A stretch of 64,000 nucleotides of DNA from an uncultured Oscillospiraceae bacterium (GTDB lineage Bacteria; Bacillota; Clostridia; Oscillospirales; Oscillospiraceae). Shown one piece after another: positions 29,346-37,004 of the stretch (position 1 is the stretch's first letter; each line of letters opens with the position of its first letter). The notes below the pieces were generated by a model. The model searched no databases, had not been told where the DNA came from, and was given only the letters and a program-made list of their open reading frames with translations. The DNA lies in contig CANQBC010000001.1 of the NCBI GenBank assembly GCA_947589225.1, positions 1 to 64,000 of the forward strand, in the 5' to 3' direction. The translations under genes and the position numbers were made by a program.

Positions 29346-30635
29346 TCAATCGGCCCGCAGCGCCTCCACCGGCTGGAGCCGGGACGCCTTGGCGGCGGGA
29401 TAGAGGCCGAAGATGAGTCCCAGCGCCACGGATATGGCAAAGGCCCCCACGGTGATCCCCGCGCCGGGAATAAGGATGATCTTAAAGGCCAGCTTGCCCA
29501 CGATGAGCGTCCCCAGATACCCCACGATGATGCCCAGGATCCCGCCGATGCCGCAGATCATGGCGGCCTCGATGAGAAACTGCGTGATGATGCTCTTCCT
29601 CTCGGCGCCGATGGCCTTGCGGATGCCGATCTCCCGGGTGCGTTCGGTGACGGTGACCAGCATGATGTTCATAATGCCCACGCCGCCCACAATGAGGGAT
29701 ATGGCGGCGATGCCGCCCAGGAAATACTGCTGCAGCTTGTTGGCCTCGTTCTCTTCCTCCTGGTAAACTGTCTGGTTTACCACGTCCACATAGCCCGAAT
29801 CGCCCAGGATACCCTCCAGGAAGCTCTTGATGAGCGTGGCGGCCATTCTGGTGGATTTGGAATCCCGGGCTTTCACGGTGTACTCGTCGATGGACTGATT
29901 GTTGTTGAGGATGCGCGTCAGGGTGTGGGGAAAGACCACGATGTTGTCCATGCGGCTCATGGCCACCTCCTGCCAGTTGTCCCCGTTTTCGTTATACTCG
30001 GTGACGCCGTTGCCCTTGGGGGCGTACACGCCGATGACGGTGAAGGGTATGCCGTTGACGGAGACGGTCTCTCCCACAGGGTCGATCATGCCAAAGAGGG
30101 ACTGAGCCACGGAGGCTCCCAGGACGCAGACCTGGTTCATGCGCTCAATATCCATGCAGCTGATGTCCCGGCCCTTCGCCAGTATGTAGTTATTGCACAG
30201 GGAGAACTGGTCGTTGCCCAAATAGAAGGTGGGGGGCTCCACGTAGCTCCCGCCGCCTCCGCCGTCCACAATGACCATTCCGCCGCCGTTGTTGCTTTGC
30301 CCCAGGGTCTGGACACCGTAGGAGATGGTCAGACCGCTCCAGATCTGCCCGTTGGGGGTGACGCCGGAGACGTAGTCGGAGATGCGCTGGCAGTAGTTGT
30401 AGAGCTCGTCGTTCACGTCCACGCTGCCGTCCCAGCTATAGGCGTAGACGTTCAGCTTGTTCTCGCCCAGGCTCTCATAATATTTCTGCATGGCGAGGTT
30501 CTGGCCCTGGGCGTAGGAGACCAGGATAATGACGGCGGCAAGGCCGATGATGACGCCCAGCATGGTGAGGGCCGAACGGCCCTTGTTGGCGGAGATGGAC
30601 TTGGCGGCCATCTTCAGCGCCTGTGTGAGCTTCAT
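29346..30635 (-). CDS. MacB-like ABC transporter permease (FtsX fold)
   Basis: A 429-aa permease of the MacB/lipoprotein-translocating type. TM1 is near residues 20-45, a large extracytoplasmic MacB_PCD domain spans about 46-300, and three C-terminal helices with FtsX-domain motifs (RTREIGIRKAIGA) lie at about 305-425. It overlaps the ATPase gene by 4 bases. With the adaptor and ATPase it forms a tripartite exporter acting at the cytoplasmic membrane. In Gram-positives such sets often export peptides or antimicrobial compounds; the substrate here is unknown. Confidence 0.92.
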   Translation of the reverse strand: MKLTQALKMAAKSISANKGRSALTMLGVIIGLAAVIILVSYAQGQNLAMQKYYESLGENKLNVYAYSWDGSVDVNDELYNYCQRISDYVSGVTPNGQIWSGLTISYGVQTLGQSNNGGGMVIVDGGGGGSYVEPPTFYLGNDQFSLCNNYILAKGRDISCMDIERMNQVCVLGASVAQSLFGMIDPVGETVSVNGIPFTVIGVYAPKGNGVTEYNENGDNWQEVAMSRMDNIVVFPHTLTRILNNNQSIDEYTVKARDSKSTRMAATLIKSFLEGILGDSGYVDVVNQTVYQEEENEANKLQQYFLGGIAAISLIVGGVGIMNIMLVTVTERTREIGIRKAIGAERKSIITQFLIEAAMICGIGGILGIIVGYLGTLIVGKLAFKIILIPGAGITVGAFAISVALGLIFGLYPAAKASRLQPVEALRAD

Positions 30636-31363
30636 GAACCCGCTCCCCCTTCCCGGGCGACCTCCGCCTGGAGGTTCCCGCCGTTTTTGGAATCCGCCAC
30701 GATCCTTCCGTCGGAGATGCGCACGATCCGGTGGGCCGTGGCGGCGATGGAGTTGTCGTGGGTGATAAGGATGATGGTGGTGCCCGCCTCCTCGTGGAGG
30801 GTGTGGAGGATCTCCAAAACGTGTTTGCCGGTCCTGGAGTCCAAGGCGCCGGTGGGCTCGTCGGCCATGATGATGGGGGGCCTGGCGGCGATGGCCCGGG
30901 CAATGGCCACGCGCTGCTGCTGGCCGCCGGACATCTCCGAGGGCTTATGCTTTGCCCGATCCGCCATTTTCACCCGCTCCAGGGCGTCCATCACCAGATC
31001 CTCCCGCTTCAAAAGGCCCACGCCCTGGTAGATAAGGGGCAGCTCCACATTTTCATAGGCGTTGAGGGCCGATATGAGGTTGTAGCCCTGGAAGATAAAT
31101 CCAATCTCCCGGTTGCGGATGCGGGCCAGCTCCTTATCCGAAAGCTCCGTCACGTCCGTGCCGTCCAGGGTGTAGCCGCCGTAGGAGGGGATGTCCAGAC
31201 AGCCCAGAATGTTCATGAGGGTGGATTTCCCCGAGCCGGAGGCCCCGATGATGGCCACGAACTCCCCCCGGTCGATCTGAAGGGAGACGCCGTCCAGCGC
31301 CCGCACCTCGCTCTCAAGCCCCTCGTTATAAATTTTATAGACGTTTTTTATATCAATGAGCAT
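30632..31363 (-). CDS. MacB-like ABC transporter ATP-binding protein
   Basis: A 243-aa ATPase of the MacB/LolD group that energises the FtsX-type permease. Walker A GASGSGKST, Q-loop, signature MSGGQQQRVAIARA, Walker B PPIIMADEPTGALD and H-loop ITHD are all present, so it should be active. It is cotranscribed with the adaptor gene upstream (10-base gap) and overlaps the permease downstream by 4 bases. Confidence 0.95.
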   Translation of the reverse strand: MLIDIKNVYKIYNEGLESEVRALDGVSLQIDRGEFVAIIGASGSGKSTLMNILGCLDIPSYGGYTLDGTDVTELSDKELARIRNREIGFIFQGYNLISALNAYENVELPLIYQGVGLLKREDLVMDALERVKMADRAKHKPSEMSGGQQQRVAIARAIAARPPIIMADEPTGALDSRTGKHVLEILHTLHEEAGTTIILITHDNSIAATAHRIVRISDGRIVADSKNGGNLQAEVAREGGAGS

Positions 31364-31373
31364 GGCTTCATCC

Positions 31374-33164
31374 TCAGTAGGAGTACGCGCCTGTCATCAT
31401 ATAGGCGTTGAAGATCTCGGTGTCCGCCTCAAGGCCGGAGGTGATCTCCAGATTGTACCGGTCGGAGAGACCGGTCTCCACGGGTACGGGCCAGTAGCCC
31501 TCCTCCCCGGAGGGATAGGGGGGATACTCGCCGTAATACTCGGGCATATCAAACTCCACGGCGTTATCCGGCTTTTCGTCTGCCTTTATGAACACCACCT
31601 TCTGGGGGTTTCCGTCGGTGTCCACGATGCTCTTGACACACTGGATAGGCACGGTGACGCAGTCCACGGTCTCGCTGGTGACAAAGGAGTAGTTGAGTCC
31701 CATGCCGGGCTGGAGGGCGCCGCTGAGGTTGTCCACCGTCAGTGTCACGGGGTAGGTGGACATGCCGGTGCCCATCTGCGCGCCCTCAATGTCGATCTTG
31801 GTAACCACGCCGATGAAGCTGTTGCCGTTCCAGTCGGTGAGCTCCACCTCCATGCCGGGGTTTATGTAGGAGATATTCCGGTCGTCCACGGAGATCTCCA
31901 CGGTCATGTTGGTGGTGTCGGATATGGTGATGACGGTGGCGCCTGCCTCCACCTCCTGATCGGGGACGATGGCGCAGGAGGTGATCGTGCCGGAGATGGG
32001 GGCGACCACCTCCGAGTTCTGCGCGGCCAGCTGGGCGTCGGCCAGGGTCGTCTGAAGCTCGGCAAGCCGGGCCTCGTCATCGGACACGCGCTTTTCGGCG
32101 CTCTCAACATTGGCCTCCAGGGCCTCCAGCTGTTCCTCGAAGGACTCCCTGGACTGGGTGAGCAGCACCTCGCCGGCCTCCACGTTTGTGTAATTGCGAA
32201 GCGTACCCACGGAGCTGACGGCACCGGGGAGGGAGGCGCTCACCTGGGCTGTCTCGGAATAGGCCAGCGTTCCGCCGGAGTAGGGATAGACCTCCGCGCC
32301 GGAGGCGGACTTCATGATGGCCGAGGCGTCCATTTTCTCGGTGAGGGTGCCGGGGTTGGGAACCAGGATGTCCACCTCAAAAAAGAGGCCGCCTTCCGGG
32401 GAGACAAAGCTGACCTTATAGATGGCCTCCACCTTGCCGTTGGTCACCAGCATCAGGGAGGGGACGGAGACGCTCACGTCCTGCCCCACATAGATGTCGT
32501 TTTCGTAGGCGTAGCTGAAATAGAGCGTCAGGCGCATCTGCCTGTCGTTGACCAGGGTGGCGATGGGGGTTCCGGCTTCCAGCATCTGGCCGTGGGTGAT
32601 GTCCTGGACGTCCAGGAGCTTCCCGGCGAAGGGCGCGGTGACCGTGAGCTTGGAAGCGTCGGCGCGAAGTTCCGCCAGATCGCGCTGGGCGCTTTCCCGG
32701 GCCTTTACGGCGTCGTCCAGCTCCTTCTGGGCGTTGTTTACGTCGTCCTGGGCCTTCTGTACCTGCGACTGGGCGTCGGGACTGAAGATGGAGTAGAGGG
32801 GCTGGCCCTCAAAGACGACGTCGCCCACGCCCGCGTAGACATCCTGAATGACGCCCTTGAGAGCCACGGAGACGGCGGCGTTGCCGCCGGCCCGGGCGGA
32901 GCCGTATCCCTGGACGGTGCTCTGGATGGTGCCGATCTGGGACATGGCGGAGAGGATATCCCCCTCTTCCTTCTTCTCGCGGAATACAAAAAACCATATG
33001 GCAAAGGCAACGGCGGCGATCACAAGTACGGTGACGCTGATGACAACGACGCGCTTTATGGCTTTGCCGTGTTTCTTCTTTTTCGGAGCCTGACGGGGCT
33101 GACCGGGGGACGGGGGCGCCTCCGGGACTGTTGGGGTGGGAATGTTCATTTCTTCGGGTGTCAT
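31374..33164 (-). CDS. HlyD/MacA-like membrane-fusion adaptor protein
   Basis: A 596-aa adaptor for the MacB-like transporter. A Lys-rich start and one TM helix (about residues 33-58) anchor it. Split biotinyl-lipoyl-like and beta-barrel domains flank a coiled coil predicted near 125-160, and a second coiled coil at about 335-395 (EALEANVESAEKRV...) is followed by another lipoyl-like region (SGTITSCAIVPDQEV). It is longer than classical MacA (about 370 aa), apparently because hairpin and lipoyl parts are duplicated. It is the first gene of the minus-strand operon with its own promoter. Gram-positive adaptors of this type serve ABC exporters without an outer-membrane channel. Confidence 0.88.
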   Translation of the reverse strand: MTPEEMNIPTPTVPEAPPSPGQPRQAPKKKKHGKAIKRVVVISVTVLVIAAVAFAIWFFVFREKKEEGDILSAMSQIGTIQSTVQGYGSARAGGNAAVSVALKGVIQDVYAGVGDVVFEGQPLYSIFSPDAQSQVQKAQDDVNNAQKELDDAVKARESAQRDLAELRADASKLTVTAPFAGKLLDVQDITHGQMLEAGTPIATLVNDRQMRLTLYFSYAYENDIYVGQDVSVSVPSLMLVTNGKVEAIYKVSFVSPEGGLFFEVDILVPNPGTLTEKMDASAIMKSASGAEVYPYSGGTLAYSETAQVSASLPGAVSSVGTLRNYTNVEAGEVLLTQSRESFEEQLEALEANVESAEKRVSDDEARLAELQTTLADAQLAAQNSEVVAPISGTITSCAIVPDQEVEAGATVITISDTTNMTVEISVDDRNISYINPGMEVELTDWNGNSFIGVVTKIDIEGAQMGTGMSTYPVTLTVDNLSGALQPGMGLNYSFVTSETVDCVTVPIQCVKSIVDTDGNPQKVVFIKADEKPDNAVEFDMPEYYGEYPPYPSGEEGYWPVPVETGLSDRYNLEITSGLEADTEIFNAYMMTGAYSY

Positions 33165-33420: not shown

Positions 33421-33449
33421 TTTACTTTTCAGCCGGGGTGTGATATACT
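33421..33449 (+). promoter_or_regulatory. Promoter driving the riboswitch-like leader
   Basis: TTTACT (33421-33426), a 17-base spacer ending in TGA, and TATACT (33444-33449) form an extended -10 promoter. The predicted start, about 33456, coincides with the first base pair of the downstream nested structure. Confidence 0.75.
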
Positions 33450-33456
33450 TTTCCTG

Positions 33457-33598
33457 CCACACAGCTAAATACATATTCAGACGGGGCATACTATGGGTAA
33501 AAACGTATGCCTTGACCGTAATCCTGTCTGGATATAACTGTGTGGCAACAGAGGTCGGGCCGCGTTTTTCGCGCGCGGCTTTTGCCGCGCGTTTTTTT
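33457..33598 (+). promoter_or_regulatory. Riboswitch-like leader with regulated terminator
   Basis: Nested helices: P1 CCACACAG (33457-33464)/CTGTGTGG (33538-33545); P2 CAGAC (33478-33482)/GTCTG (33526-33530), extended by GG/CC; P3 GGCATAC (33485-33491)/GTATGCC (33505-33511) with a 13-base loop. Large unpaired A/U-rich strands flank P2, and an 11-base bulge contains GACC. Downstream, GCCGCG (33559-33564) can pair with CGCGGC (33574-33579), or that strand forms the terminator CGCGCGGC-TTTT-GCCGCGCG plus T7 (33572-33598). This is the architecture of a transcription-terminating riboswitch. I cannot match it to a class I know. The ligand is unknown. Confidence 0.65.
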
Positions 33599-33638
33599 AT
33601 GCAGTCCGGCTTACAGATACAGATGGGAGGCATACCTG

Positions 33639-34358
33639 ATGCTTGACGTCGAGCATGTCACAAAACGATACGGCAAGGTCACGGCCTGCGACGATGTGAG
33701 CTTCCGGCTGGAGCCGGGGAGCGTGACGGTGCTGTTGGGGCCCAACGGGGCGGGAAAGAGCACCATAATAAAGTCCGTGGCGGGGTTTCTCAAATACGAG
33801 GGGAAGATCACCGTGGGCGGGTTCCCCAACAAGAGCGTGGAGGCGCGCCGGCTTTTGGGGTACATACCGGAGATGCCCTCGCTCTACCCCAACCTGACGG
33901 TCTCGGAGCACATGGAATTTCTGGCGCGGGCATACAGGCTGACGGACTACGCCGGGCGTGTGGACGAGCTTTTCCGCCGGCTTGAGCTGGAGGACAAGCG
34001 GCGCAAATTCGGAGACGAGCTTTCAAAGGGTATGCAGCAGAAGCTCAATATTTGCCTGGGACTTTTGCCGGAGCCGAAGCTCATCCTTCTGGACGAACCC
34101 ATGATCGGGCTGGACCCCCACGCCATCAAGGAGCTGAAGCTGATCATCGAGGAGCTTCGCGCCCAGGGCCGCACGATGCTGGTGAGCACCCACATCATCG
34201 ACAGCGTGGATATGCTGTGGGATCGGACGGTCATCATGGACGGCGGGCGCGTCCGGGCCAACGTCACAAGGAGCGAGCTTGAAAAGGACGGGCGCACCTT
34301 AGAGCAGCTCTTTTTCGAGGTCACCGAGGGGACGGCCCCGGAGGGCGGGGAAGCATGA
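33639..34358 (+). CDS. ABC transporter ATP-binding protein
   Basis: A 239-aa ATPase of the ABC-2 exporter type. Walker A GPNGAGKST, signature LSKGMQQKLNICLGLL, Walker B LILLDEPMIGLDPHA and H-loop VSTHI are intact. ATG 33639 follows GGGAGG at 33625-33630, and the longer frame upstream lies in the leader. It overlaps the membrane partner by 4 bases (ATGA). Its expression is probably gated by the leader terminator at 33572-33598. The substrate is unknown; this family includes drug, bacteriocin and lipid exporters. Confidence 0.93.
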   Translation: MLDVEHVTKRYGKVTACDDVSFRLEPGSVTVLLGPNGAGKSTIIKSVAGFLKYEGKITVGGFPNKSVEARRLLGYIPEMPSLYPNLTVSEHMEFLARAYRLTDYAGRVDELFRRLELEDKRRKFGDELSKGMQQKLNICLGLLPEPKLILLDEPMIGLDPHAIKELKLIIEELRAQGRTMLVSTHIIDSVDMLWDRTVIMDGGRVRANVTRSELEKDGRTLEQLFFEVTEGTAPEGGEA

Positions 34359-35989
34359 GACTGTTTGCCTATTACGCCCTCCACACCTTTAAAAACCAGC
34401 TGAGAAAGCTCCTCAAGACGTGGGTGATGGTTTTCTTCCTGGTCTGCTTCGTGCTGGGCATCGGCATCGGCGCGATTTTTGTGTTTGTGGACGAAGCCGG
34501 CGAGCCGGAGGAACCCGTCGAGGACGCGGAGGAGCCGGAGGGGCCGTCGTTTTTCGAGGAACAGGGGATAGAGAAAAGCGAGCTTATCGAGCTTGTGGCC
34601 GGGGGCGCGGCGCTTCTCCTGTTTGCGTTTTACGCGGTGAACGCGGATAAAAACGGGGCGCGGATCTTTCTGCCCGCCGATGTGAACCTCCTGTTCCCGT
34701 CGCCCATGAAGCCCCAGTCGGTGCTGATGTTCCGGCTCGCCACACAGGTGGGGGTCGGCGTCCTGGGCGGCGCCTATATGCTCTTCCAGCTTCCCAACCT
34801 GATCCTGAACGCGGGCCTTTCCGTGTGGGCGGCGCTGGCGCTGGCGGCGGCCTGGGGCCTTGCCGTGATCTTTTGCATCCTCATACAGCTGTCGCTCTAC
34901 ACCCTCTCGAACACATACCCCGCCGTGAAGCGGTATCTGCGCCGGGGCGTCTATCTCGTCCTGGCGGCGCTGGCGGTGGGCTTTGCCGCCTTCGCCTCGC
35001 GGAGCGGGGAGGGGTGGCTCAAAGCCGCCGTGGCTTTCTTCAACGCCCCCGGCACCAGGTTTATCCCCATCTGGGGCTGGCTCAAGGGCTTTTGCGGCTT
35101 CGCGGCGGAGGGGAACCTTGCGGGGGCGCTTCTGGAGCTTCTGGCCATGCTCCTGGGCGGCGCGGCGCTGGCGGCCTTCATCTGGCGCATCAAGGCGGAT
35201 TTCTATGAGGACGCCATGGCCCGGTCCGAGGAGACGGCGGAGCTTCTGGCCGCCGCCCAGGCGGAGAACGCCACCGGCCTTGTCCGCAGGAAGAAGGACA
35301 GGAGCGAGAAGCTTACGCGGGACGGCCTCCGGCACGGCGCGGGTGCCAACGTGTACTTCTTCAAGACCCTCTACAACCGCCGGCGCTTCGCGCACCTGGG
35401 GGTGTTCACAAAGACCATGGAGACGTATCTGGCCGCCGCCCTGCTTGTGGGCGTGATCTGCCGCTTCACCGGCACCCCCGGCAGCGTCCCCGTGGCCCTG
35501 ACGCTGGGCGCTCTGGCCTTCTTCCGCTCCCTGGGCAACCCCCTGGAGCAGGACACCGGGACGGACTGGTTTAAGACCATCCCGGAGTCGGCCTGGGCAA
35601 AGCTCTTCTGGTCGCTGCTGGGCGGGACGGCGTGCTGTCTCCTGGATGTGCTGCCGGCCCTTCTCGCCGGAGCTCTCGCCGCCGGATCGAACCCCCTGAC
35701 AGCCCTGCTTCCGCTCCCGCTGATCGTCTCCGTGGATCTCTACGCCACGGCGGTGGGGGCGTTCATCGGCCTGTCCGTGCCGGTGTCCGCCGGAAAGACC
35801 ATCAAGCAGGTGGTTCAGATCATGTTCGTCTATTTCGGACTTCTGCCCGATGTGGTTTTCGCCGTGGTGGGGCTGGCCCTGGGGCATACCGGCACGGCCC
35901 TGATCCTGGCCGCGGCGGTGAATTTTGGGCTGGGCCTCGCTTTCCTCGGCCTGTCGACCGTTTTCCTCGAGCCGGGGGGCGGAAAATGA
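34355..35989 (+). CDS. Putative ABC exporter membrane subunit
   Basis: A 544-aa integral membrane protein cotranscribed with the ATPase through an ATGA overlap. Hydrophobic segments lie near residues 25-48, 85-100, 125-205, 260-285 and 360-540, about twelve or more helices in all. An acidic linker (EEPVEDAEEPE) follows the first helix. It resembles the firmicute putative ABC exporter family rather than classical two-component ABC-2 permeases. The pair probably forms an efflux system; the neighbouring CPBP protease could mature or protect against an exported peptide, which is inference. Confidence 0.8.
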   Translation: MRLFAYYALHTFKNQLRKLLKTWVMVFFLVCFVLGIGIGAIFVFVDEAGEPEEPVEDAEEPEGPSFFEEQGIEKSELIELVAGGAALLLFAFYAVNADKNGARIFLPADVNLLFPSPMKPQSVLMFRLATQVGVGVLGGAYMLFQLPNLILNAGLSVWAALALAAAWGLAVIFCILIQLSLYTLSNTYPAVKRYLRRGVYLVLAALAVGFAAFASRSGEGWLKAAVAFFNAPGTRFIPIWGWLKGFCGFAAEGNLAGALLELLAMLLGGAALAAFIWRIKADFYEDAMARSEETAELLAAAQAENATGLVRRKKDRSEKLTRDGLRHGAGANVYFFKTLYNRRRFAHLGVFTKTMETYLAAALLVGVICRFTGTPGSVPVALTLGALAFFRSLGNPLEQDTGTDWFKTIPESAWAKLFWSLLGGTACCLLDVLPALLAGALAAGSNPLTALLPLPLIVSVDLYATAVGAFIGLSVPVSAGKTIKQVVQIMFVYFGLLPDVVFAVVGLALGHTGTALILAAAVNFGLGLAFLGLSTVFLEPGGGK

Positions 35990-36041: not shown

Positions 36042-37004
36042 ATGGCAAAAAAGCAATTTTCACGTCTTGGTTTTGGAGTCCTGACCATACTCCTTTCGGC
36101 AAGCGTCTTTCAGGCCGTCGCGGCGGTGGCGGCTGTGCTGGTGTGGCCGGACGAGGGGACGCGGCCGGGGTGGCTTATGTGGGCGGCGACCTTTGCGCCC
36201 ATGTATCTTTTGGCGGTGCCCCTGGGCCTTCTCGTGATGCGCAAGGCCCCCGCGACGCCGCGCCAGCAGCACCCCATGACGGCGAAGGAGTTTGTCACCG
36301 CGGGACTTATCAGCGTATTTCTCATGTACGCGGGCAACATCATCGGCAGCGTCATACTGACGGTCATCCAGGCCGTGGCGGGCACGACGGCGGAGAACCC
36401 GCTCCTGACCTACGCCATGGACGACAATCTCCTTCTCCGGGTGCTGGTCATGGTGGTGATCGCCCCGGTCATCGAGGAGTACATCTTCCGCAAGCAGCTC
36501 ATCGACAGGATGAACGCCTACGGGGAAAAGCTGGCGGTGGTGACCTCGGCTCTGATATTCGGACTTTTCCACGGGAACCTCAGCCAGTTCTTTTACGCCT
36601 TCGCCCTGGGGCTGGTGTTCGGGTACGTCTATTTGAGGACCGGAAGGCTCCGCTACTCCGCCGCGCTTCATATGTTCATAAACTTCCTTGGCAGCGTGGT
36701 CGCGCCTGCGGTTCTCGCGAGCGTGGACGTGGACGCTGTGAGCAGTTTGGATTTTGTCGATTTCGAGGCGCTGGCGGCATACCTTGTCACCCTGGTGCCG
36801 CTGATGGTCTACGGGCTCGTGATGTTTGGGCTTGTGATCGCGGGACTGGTGCTGTTTTGCCTCAACGTGCGAAAGACTTCCTTCGACCCGGCCCCGATGG
36901 AGCTTGAGCGGAGCGAGAGATTTAAAACGGCTTTCCTGAATCCCGGAATGATCCTCTTCGCTATCCTGTGCCTGGCGTCCATAGTGCTGACGTTCCTGGT
37001 ATAA
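36042..37004 (+). CDS. CPBP-family intramembrane glutamic endopeptidase
   Basis: A 320-aa membrane protease of the CPBP (Abi/CAAX) family. Motif 1 EEYIFRKQ (EExxxR) near residue 146, motif 2 FGLFHGN near 170 and motif 3 HMFINF near 208 supply the catalytic Glu/His/Asn set. About eight helices are predicted. The RBS TTGGAGGCGG lies upstream of ATG 36042. The family includes prenyl-protein processing, bacteriocin self-immunity and peptide-maturation enzymes. The position behind an ABC exporter fits bacteriocin or peptide handling, but no precursor peptide is recognisable. A terminator overlaps its stop codon. Confidence 0.9.
   Translation: MAKKQFSRLGFGVLTILLSASVFQAVAAVAAVLVWPDEGTRPGWLMWAATFAPMYLLAVPLGLLVMRKAPATPRQQHPMTAKEFVTAGLISVFLMYAGNIIGSVILTVIQAVAGTTAENPLLTYAMDDNLLLRVLVMVVIAPVIEEYIFRKQLIDRMNAYGEKLAVVTSALIFGLFHGNLSQFFYAFALGLVFGYVYLRTGRLRYSAALHMFINFLGSVVAPAVLASVDVDAVSSLDFVDFEALAAYLVTLVPLMVYGLVMFGLVIAGLVLFCLNVRKTSFDPAPMELERSERFKTAFLNPGMILFAILCLASIVLTFLV

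Follow-up and report, generated by a model that had tools for sequence, protein, structure and literature searches.

A probable undescribed class of cis-acting leader RNA in Oscillospiraceae and other Clostridia, with a sensor loop and a terminator strand as competing partners

The leader and its operon in the source window

The DNA analysed here is a window of 64,000 nt from an uncultured Oscillospiraceae bacterium (GCA_947589225.1, contig CANQBC010000001.1, positions 1-64,000, forward strand), and the coordinates of the leader and its genes are those of this window. On its plus strand lie genes that Pfam assigns to an ABC exporter ATPase (33639-34358; PF00005), an ABC exporter permease (34355-35989; PF16962, ABC_export) and a CPBP-type protease (36042-37004; PF02517, Rce1-like), and in front of them, on the same strand, is a leader RNA region at 33421-33638. 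We note that a divergent operon (29346-33164, minus strand) has its start facing the leader; it encodes an HlyD-type adaptor, an ABC ATPase and a permease that, judged by eye, is MacB/FtsX-like.

An earlier note on this DNA had described the region as a promoter followed by three nested helices, an antiterminator, a terminator with seven T and a ribosome-binding site (RBS), and all of these parts are present at the coordinates it gave. The promoter (33421-33449) reads TTTACT-17-TATACT with an extended -10 TG at 33441-33442; its -10 box ends 5 nt upstream of helix P1, and its position predicts a transcription start at about 33455. P1 pairs UGCCACACAG (33455-33464) with CUGUGUGGCA (33538-33547) and is thus 10 bp long, rather than the 8 bp claimed for the closing helix. 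Just 3' of its first strand is an unpaired AAUA (33468-33471), conserved in the alignments A3 and A7 described below. Within P1 lie P2, which pairs CAGACGGG (33478-33485) with CCUGUCUG (33523-33530), and the P3 hairpin (33485-33511), the weakest helix, in which GGCAUAC (33485-33491) and GUAUGCC (33505-33511) enclose the loop UAUGGGUAAAAAC. The 3' strands of P1 and P2 are supported by covariation.

Three further segments matter for what follows. S1, GGUAAAAACGU (33496-33506), is conserved in the P3 loop. S2, GCCGCGUUUUU (33559-33569), makes up the 5' strand and loop of the antiterminator and has, according to covariation and predicted folds, the alternative partners S1 and S3; the part of S3 that reads CGCGGC (33574-33579) is the 3' strand of the antiterminator and also lies within the 5' strand of the terminator. 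The antiterminator thus pairs GCCGCG with CGCGGC (33559-33564 with 33574-33579), while the intrinsic terminator (33571-33598), as read from the sequence, has a 9-bp stem (33571-33579 with 33584-33592), a UUUU loop and seven U (T-run 33592-33598). These two structures have one strand in common, which bears out their proposed mutual exclusion, and an RBS (GGGAGG) and an ATG start codon follow at 33625-33641. The most informative part of the leader was absent from the earlier note: in the window, the stretch AAAAACGU of the P3 loop (33499-33506) pairs with GCGUUUUU (33562-33569), in the antiterminator 5' strand and loop, through 8 bp that include five A-U pairs and one U-G.

The predicted folding energy of the domain is low for its composition, with -28 kcal/mol for the 88 nt at 33459-33546 (z -3.3; 1 of 200 shuffles as good) and a z of -3.9 for 33459-33602 (0 of 200 as good). 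The second stretch lacks the first four bases of P1, and its predicted fold loses P1, the 3' strand of which then pairs with the terminator region. The best single-sequence fold of the window domain has P1 and a longer P2 and no P3 (-38.2 kcal/mol); with P3 enforced it reaches -36.4, that is, 1.8 kcal/mol above the best, and P3 belongs to the best fold only at chain lengths of about 60-72 nt. The P3 of the earlier note is consequently missing from the best fold of the window itself, but it is found in the consensus of 13 relatives from the genus. Full-length energies of the window leader are close, at -60.4 kcal/mol with the terminator and -56.7 with the antiterminator. The S1:S2 pseudoknot is beyond the reach of such energies; when S1:S2 is folded as a nested helix with P1 removed, the result is about 12 kcal/mol worse, and S1:S2 must therefore form while P1 is closed.

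At gathering score, Rfam 15 has a sole match in the 64-kb window and none at the leader, in line with its earlier description as an unassigned riboswitch-like leader, and it has no match at the element in 40 relative loci from 28 genomes. The sole match is a malK-I RNA (RF03069; 58018-58197, minus strand; 135.6 bits), which is unrelated to the leader. Relaxed Rfam scans of two elements, the window leader among them, returned only low-scoring matches to families of small RNAs, snoRNAs, lncRNAs and microRNAs that are unrelated to the element, and none of these came up to its gathering score. A leader-peptide attenuator was considered and rejected: a closed frame of at least 8 codons occurs in 138 of 181 elements, and is preceded by an RBS in only 30 of the 181, at scattered positions.

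Relatives, covariation and distribution of the element

BLAST found 17 matches within the genus, spread over 15 of the 34 genomes searched; 13 of them were full leaders (12 genomes, the window included) and the other four short matches. N-terminal sequences place a window-like ABC ATPase and permease downstream of eight of the 13 leaders, and a different ABC ATPase with another permease downstream of the remaining five. Pfam was applied to the pair in the window and, to represent the second kind, to one of the five and the family locus L050; it assigns the second permease to ABC-2 (PF12698, on L050). Eight of the 13 leaders have C-G as the fourth pair of P1 and the other five have G-C, and P3 is kept in all, with six of its pairs invariant. 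The covariance model R1 was made from these 13 leaders (alignment A3). Because the P2 strand is shifted in the second gene group of A3, on which RNAalifold missed P2, R1 was used as a search model only.

R1 matched 37 of 400 family genomes at E <=0.01, and most of the 45 family matches listed belong to a longer form (about 110 nt) that keeps the layout. Forty of the 45 were used, four being already in the set and one (G080) being left out, and 36 of the 40 loci were aligned with MAFFT to give A7, from which L049-L052 were excluded as window-like. The covariance model R2 was built from A7, so that the window type formed no part of its training; it recovers the window leader with 63.9 bits (E 4.6e-11) and elsewhere in the window genome finds only the opposite strand of the leader (31.1 bits) and a chance-level match (E 2.2). 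The weak reverse-strand matches of both models arise because the element is near-palindromic, and the alignment cut-offs were set to exclude them.

Covariation was counted over 96 elements aligned to R2. P1 is 97.5-99.1% paired with double changes in 8 of 11 pairs, P2 is 90.4% paired with double changes in all 11, and the antiterminator S2:S3 is 91.2% paired with double changes in 8 of 11; since the alignment was fitted to these three helices, their figures lean towards it. S1:S2, in which GGUAAAAACGCAU-CUC faces GAG-AUGCGUUUUU, is a helix absent from the aligning model, and its two parts are 94.5% and 90.6% paired with 8 of 13 pairs double-changed; one of the 13 is poor, being unpaired in 30 of 82 cells. 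In A7, which MAFFT had aligned, the same helix is 93.7% paired. A further alignment, A9 (107 rows), holds 100 loci of which 80 had been chosen by the exact S2 pattern, and it was therefore left out when S1:S2 was counted. The covariation scores of P1, P2, S2:S3 and S1:S2 were reached by none of 500 shuffles, and weaker single measures by 4, 9 and 6 of 500 (A7 and 96-element controls). Sliding the 3' partner lowered pairing from 93-96% to 32-62%, and slid controls for P1, P2 and S2:S3 were 32-53% paired. Covariation offers weak support for P3, the U-rich and A-rich strands of which are 78.5% paired in the longer form as compared to up to 76.7% in the slid control. Covarying pairs, the absence of which among homologues would by the earlier note have refuted the structure, are thus present: P1 and P2 covary strongly in the relatives, whereas P3 is conserved and covaries only weakly. 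The terminator stem S3:S4 was read from the sequence and is not part of these counts.

S1:S2 and S2:S3 both covary and share S2, and S2 therefore has two covarying partners that are mutually exclusive. A comparison within genomes bears on whether the S1:S2 pairing occurs in cis. In 18 genomes with at least two copies (62 copies), S1 makes 679 Watson-Crick pairs with the S2 of its own copy as compared to a mean of 652 after permutation, and 0 of 10,000 permutations were as high; copy by copy, its own S2 fitted better in 40 of the 60 compared, worse in 13 and equally in 7. The A5 of S1 and the U5 of S2 are nearly invariant, and the core of S1 is conserved beyond the needs of pairing.

Predicted folds were obtained for 95 of the 96 aligned elements, one at a contig end being dropped. 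P1 is formed (at least 8 of 11 pairs) in all 95, each of which has a complete P1, and the antiterminator is formed in all 95 chains that stop where S3 ends. Of the 95 full-length chains, 69 are predicted to fold with the terminator and 26 with the antiterminator. Because the energies of terminator and antiterminator are close and P1 is always formed, the choice between them appears poised, and its likely lever is S1 rather than the opening of P1.

The element is widespread in its order, where R2 matched 140 of 394 genomes and 70 of 168 genera, and it was found in 89 of 341 genomes of the class. Across the phylum 1 of 299 genomes matched, the window's own, a result that serves as a negative control but was obtained under stricter filters. 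Only 7-10 candidates per genome were scored in these large scans, so that the copies they report are minimum numbers; in ten genomes that were selected because they had matches, full scoring gave 4 to 13 matches each at E <=0.001, one of the four in G003 being the reverse strand of another. The exact S2 pattern occurs in 86 stretches of named genomes, and the titles of the 80 of these that are listed (L161-L240) name Clostridia, Clostridiales, Clostridiaceae, Oscillospiraceae, Ruminococcaceae, Ruminococcus, Ruminiclostridium, Monoglobus, Eubacterium and, once, Bacillota. All 80 are described as metagenome-assembled or uncultured, and many come from named gut or rumen samples.

Viral contigs gave 0 matches to the exact pattern, and one element (L228) had no match in the plasmid and E. 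coli collections. Two records of a phage collection match, MT835845.1 and MT837627.1 (L247 and L248), both labelled 'Bacteriophage sp.'; they are 'UNVERIFIED' faecal scaffolds, and the genes of the first look chromosomal. Tandem copies of the element were seen at L060, L186, L153, L237, L158, L066 and L064. By eye, every copy in the first four of these comes with a separate promoter and terminator; the second -35 box of L060 lies directly 3' of the first T-run.

Promoters and genes associated with the element

The promoter of the window leader is a feature of the class. A promoter with at least 8 of 12 matches lies near P1 in 150 of 166 distinct upstream regions, and in 143 of the 166 its -10 box lies exactly 5 nt upstream of P1, as compared to 11 of 166 after shuffling. 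A TTG and the extended TG are conserved, and none of the upstream columns examined (-42 to -35) exceeds 55% identity.

Downstream, an ORF was called for 149 of 161 elements; seven of the 12 elements lacking one lie within 150 nt of the end of their sequence, which leaves 5 of 161 as true misses. The start codon falls 17-25 nt after the T-run in 80 of the 149 and within 30 nt in 92, and a start at 17-25 nt leaves no room there for a second promoter. A filter that called for an RBS, a start no more than 150 nt after the T-run and at least 50 aa kept 127 ORFs and dropped 22 of the 149; 120 of those kept are distinct. By a home-made signal-peptide rule, 68 of these 120 genes (34 of them lipoprotein-like) are predicted to be exported, as compared to 41 of 303 background ORFs (Fisher p 1.4e-18), the background coming from L161-L240 only and the 120 from all loci. 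Pfam, applied to the first 320 aa at most of each of the 120, found BspA-type LRR_5 in 22, AMP-binding in 8, SHOCT in 6 and ABC_tran in 2.

The ABC exporter and CPBP protease reported behind the leader are indeed there in the window, as Pfam confirms; that context is local, and the genes of the class are mostly of other kinds. Since many of the class-wide genes are predicted to be exported or match BspA-type repeats, an exporter substrate is not indicated as the ligand, and as the downstream genes lack a common pathway, no ligand is indicated by them. Several smaller groups were noticed along the way. For instance, the AMP-binding genes lie behind the elements of L052, L084, L135, L179, L196, L210, L213 and L225, and by eye seven of these eight (not L179) share an N-terminal motif resembling TGYPSID or TGFPSID. 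Short proteins of about 40-60 aa also recur behind the element in what appear by eye to be two families (L124/L181/L198/L223 and L064/L080/L186/L200), and Pfam gave no match for the one member of each that was searched (L124 and L064).

Interpretation, alternatives and relation to known leader RNAs

We consider it quite probable that the leader represents a class of cis-acting leader RNA, so far undescribed, that chooses between termination and read-through into the next gene. Two hallmarks of a riboswitch were found, a structured and conserved leader domain with covariation (P1 and P2; P3 weakly) and mutually exclusive helices in the expression platform (S2 being shared, and S3 lying also in the terminator); as far as sequence comparison goes, they support calling the leader riboswitch-like, and a candidate orphan riboswitch rather than a proven one. 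Our best reading is that it would act as an attenuator of riboswitch layout, with S1 and S3 competing for S2. Points that speak against this reading are the 8-bp S1:S2 of the window with its five A-U pairs and one U-G, the lack of P3 in the best fold of the window, the 13 of 60 copies whose S1 fits a sibling S2 better, the 5 of 161 elements that have sequence but no ORF behind them, and the 22 of 149 ORFs dropped by the filter.

From the position of the promoter, polymerase would start at about the first base of P1, and P1-P2-P3 is predicted to fold into a sensor domain closed by P1. The S1 of the P3 loop (GGUAAAAACG) could then pair with S2 (GCGUUUUU) just downstream; alternatively, S2 and S3 would form the antiterminator, and S3 and S4 the terminator. 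A signal acting on the conserved core, made up of the P3 loop and the P1 flank, would presumably tip the balance: one that favours S1:S2 would free S3, and transcription would stop, while one that hides S1 would let the antiterminator survive and the gene be transcribed. Because S1:S2 takes S2 and so favours the terminator, a ligand that stabilises S1:S2 would make the element an OFF switch and one that hides S1 an ON switch. We lean slightly towards the OFF switch, by analogy with pseudoknots that are stabilised by their ligands. The signal is most likely a small molecule common to many Clostridia; it may alternatively be a protein, temperature or the speed of the polymerase. The targets of the RNA in the window genome would be an ABC exporter and a CPBP protease.

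The conservation of the S1 core beyond what pairing needs would also be expected if a regulator bound the GGUAAAAACG loop or the P1 flank, the leader being a protein-binding attenuator or a processive-antitermination leader, and diverse genes that are often envelope-related would fit a global regulon of this kind. In our judgement the long covarying stems, the conserved internal core and the competing helices resemble an aptamer more, and we regard a protein-bound leader as possible though doubtful. A somewhat less probable alternative keeps the P3 loop and changes its role. Here the U5 loop of an intact antiterminator would be the only partner of the A5 in the P3 loop, and this kissing contact, comparable to those between loops in cobalamin riboswitches, would stabilise the antiterminator and give an ON switch; the U5 of S2 does lie within the antiterminator loop, and A5 and U5 are nearly invariant, but covariation runs on into the stem positions of S2 and the CUC/GAG pairs, which an intact antiterminator would not have available. 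We therefore think the kissing loop rather unlikely. That the surface genes of the class might answer to cyclic di-GMP is suggested by the exported and BspA-type genes behind the element, since the c-di-GMP regulon in Clostridia usually comprises surface genes, and by GGDEF matches in 13 of 20 element-bearing genomes, the window's own (1 match) among them. However, the other seven of the 20 have no GGDEF match, including genomes with 13, 9 and 8 matches to the element, which makes a new class of c-di-GMP riboswitch very improbable; the same search picked up GGDEF in 8 of the 14 genomes used as controls, and among 16 comparison genomes 6 were also without it.

Two other alternatives would take the element out of the category of cis-acting leaders. 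A promoter and a terminator together make a complete unit, carried separately, by eye, by each copy in the four printed tandems, and genomes hold many copies, some with no ORF behind them (5 of 161), so that a stand-alone gene for a trans-acting small RNA might be imagined, its S1 or S2 perhaps pairing with sibling copies. Such a gene is improbable: in 80 of 149 cases the next gene starts 17-25 nt after the T-run, where a second promoter has no room, and overall S1 fits its own S2 better than the S2 of siblings, which argues for pairing in cis. Still less credible, and about as remote as the c-di-GMP riboswitch, is a repeated mobile element, a MITE- or REP-like palindrome with no regulatory role. 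The arms of P1 could pass for terminal inverted repeats, copies are numerous, and four copies of one genome (G559) lie within about 50 bases of the start of a contig; yet P2 is widely divergent and stays paired through double changes, no upstream column (-42 to -35) exceeds 55% identity, and the element has a fixed link to a promoter and a usual one to an RBS and gene start.

Returning to a switching leader RNA, we find the element to be apparently an unreported class in which sensor loop and antiterminator are coupled in an unusual way, and an earlier sighting is possible. A literature search that included the available parts of PMC11109978, PMC8632094, PMC8040213 and PMC10043782 did not find the motif in them, and papers that share a motif word were unrelated, as judged by title. 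The available main text of PMC11109978 makes no mention of Ruminococc, Oscillospir or leucine-rich. PMC8040213, as far as available, reports 3161 candidates from human microbiomes, and an unnamed entry for the element may stand among its supplements. One reason why the element may have escaped notice is that its hosts are seldom grown in culture, as indicated by the 80 listed titles, which are without exception metagenome-assembled or uncultured. According to the available part of PMC10043782, riboswitch classes discovered more recently are generally less common than those found before; the present element, in 140 of 394 genomes of the order and with up to 13 matches in one genome, contrasts with this trend.

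We speculate, at about even chances, that the element makes up an orphan riboswitch class that is abundant in Clostridia, among them many gut bacteria. It would sense an unsuspected small molecule and, by means of a pseudoknot between loop and antiterminator, control a large number of surface proteins and lipoproteins as well as some exporters, in self-contained promoter-switch-terminator cassettes that can be stacked. If a ligand were found, it would reveal a signal by which these Clostridia control their surface, and also a switch design built on direct competition of the sensor loop for the antiterminator strand. With the covariation data as a guide, a handful of mutants would be enough to test the mechanism.

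Among known systems, the terminating riboswitches of Rfam have the same 5' leader position, a closed stem with a conserved core, competition of antiterminator and terminator and an RBS right after. The element differs from them in that its sensor and terminator are apparently linked by a pseudoknot from the P3 loop to the antiterminator and not by the opening of P1, and in having no Rfam 15 match and a promoter at a fixed distance. Pairing of a loop in the sensor domain with the expression platform is known from the cobalamin riboswitch (L5-L13) and other pseudoknotted riboswitches; compared with Rfam as the tool, the pairing of the element differs from L5-L13 in extending into the stem strand of the antiterminator, and thereby excluding the antiterminator.

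The trpB motif (SRC-39-1), as described in the available part of PMC11109978, is likewise an orphan Firmicutes leader with a terminator, found mostly before an uncharacterised ABC transporter gene; compared by this description and not by sequence, it differs in having at least two hairpins and its antiterminator in the right shoulder of P1. T-box leaders share with the element the alternative antiterminator and terminator and the many genes served per genome, and the T-box covariance model had no match at the elements of the window and its relatives, though the same scan found a T-box leader elsewhere in L131 (211-436, minus strand). Also away from the element, Rfam places a glycine riboswitch in L055 (3031-3110, plus strand).
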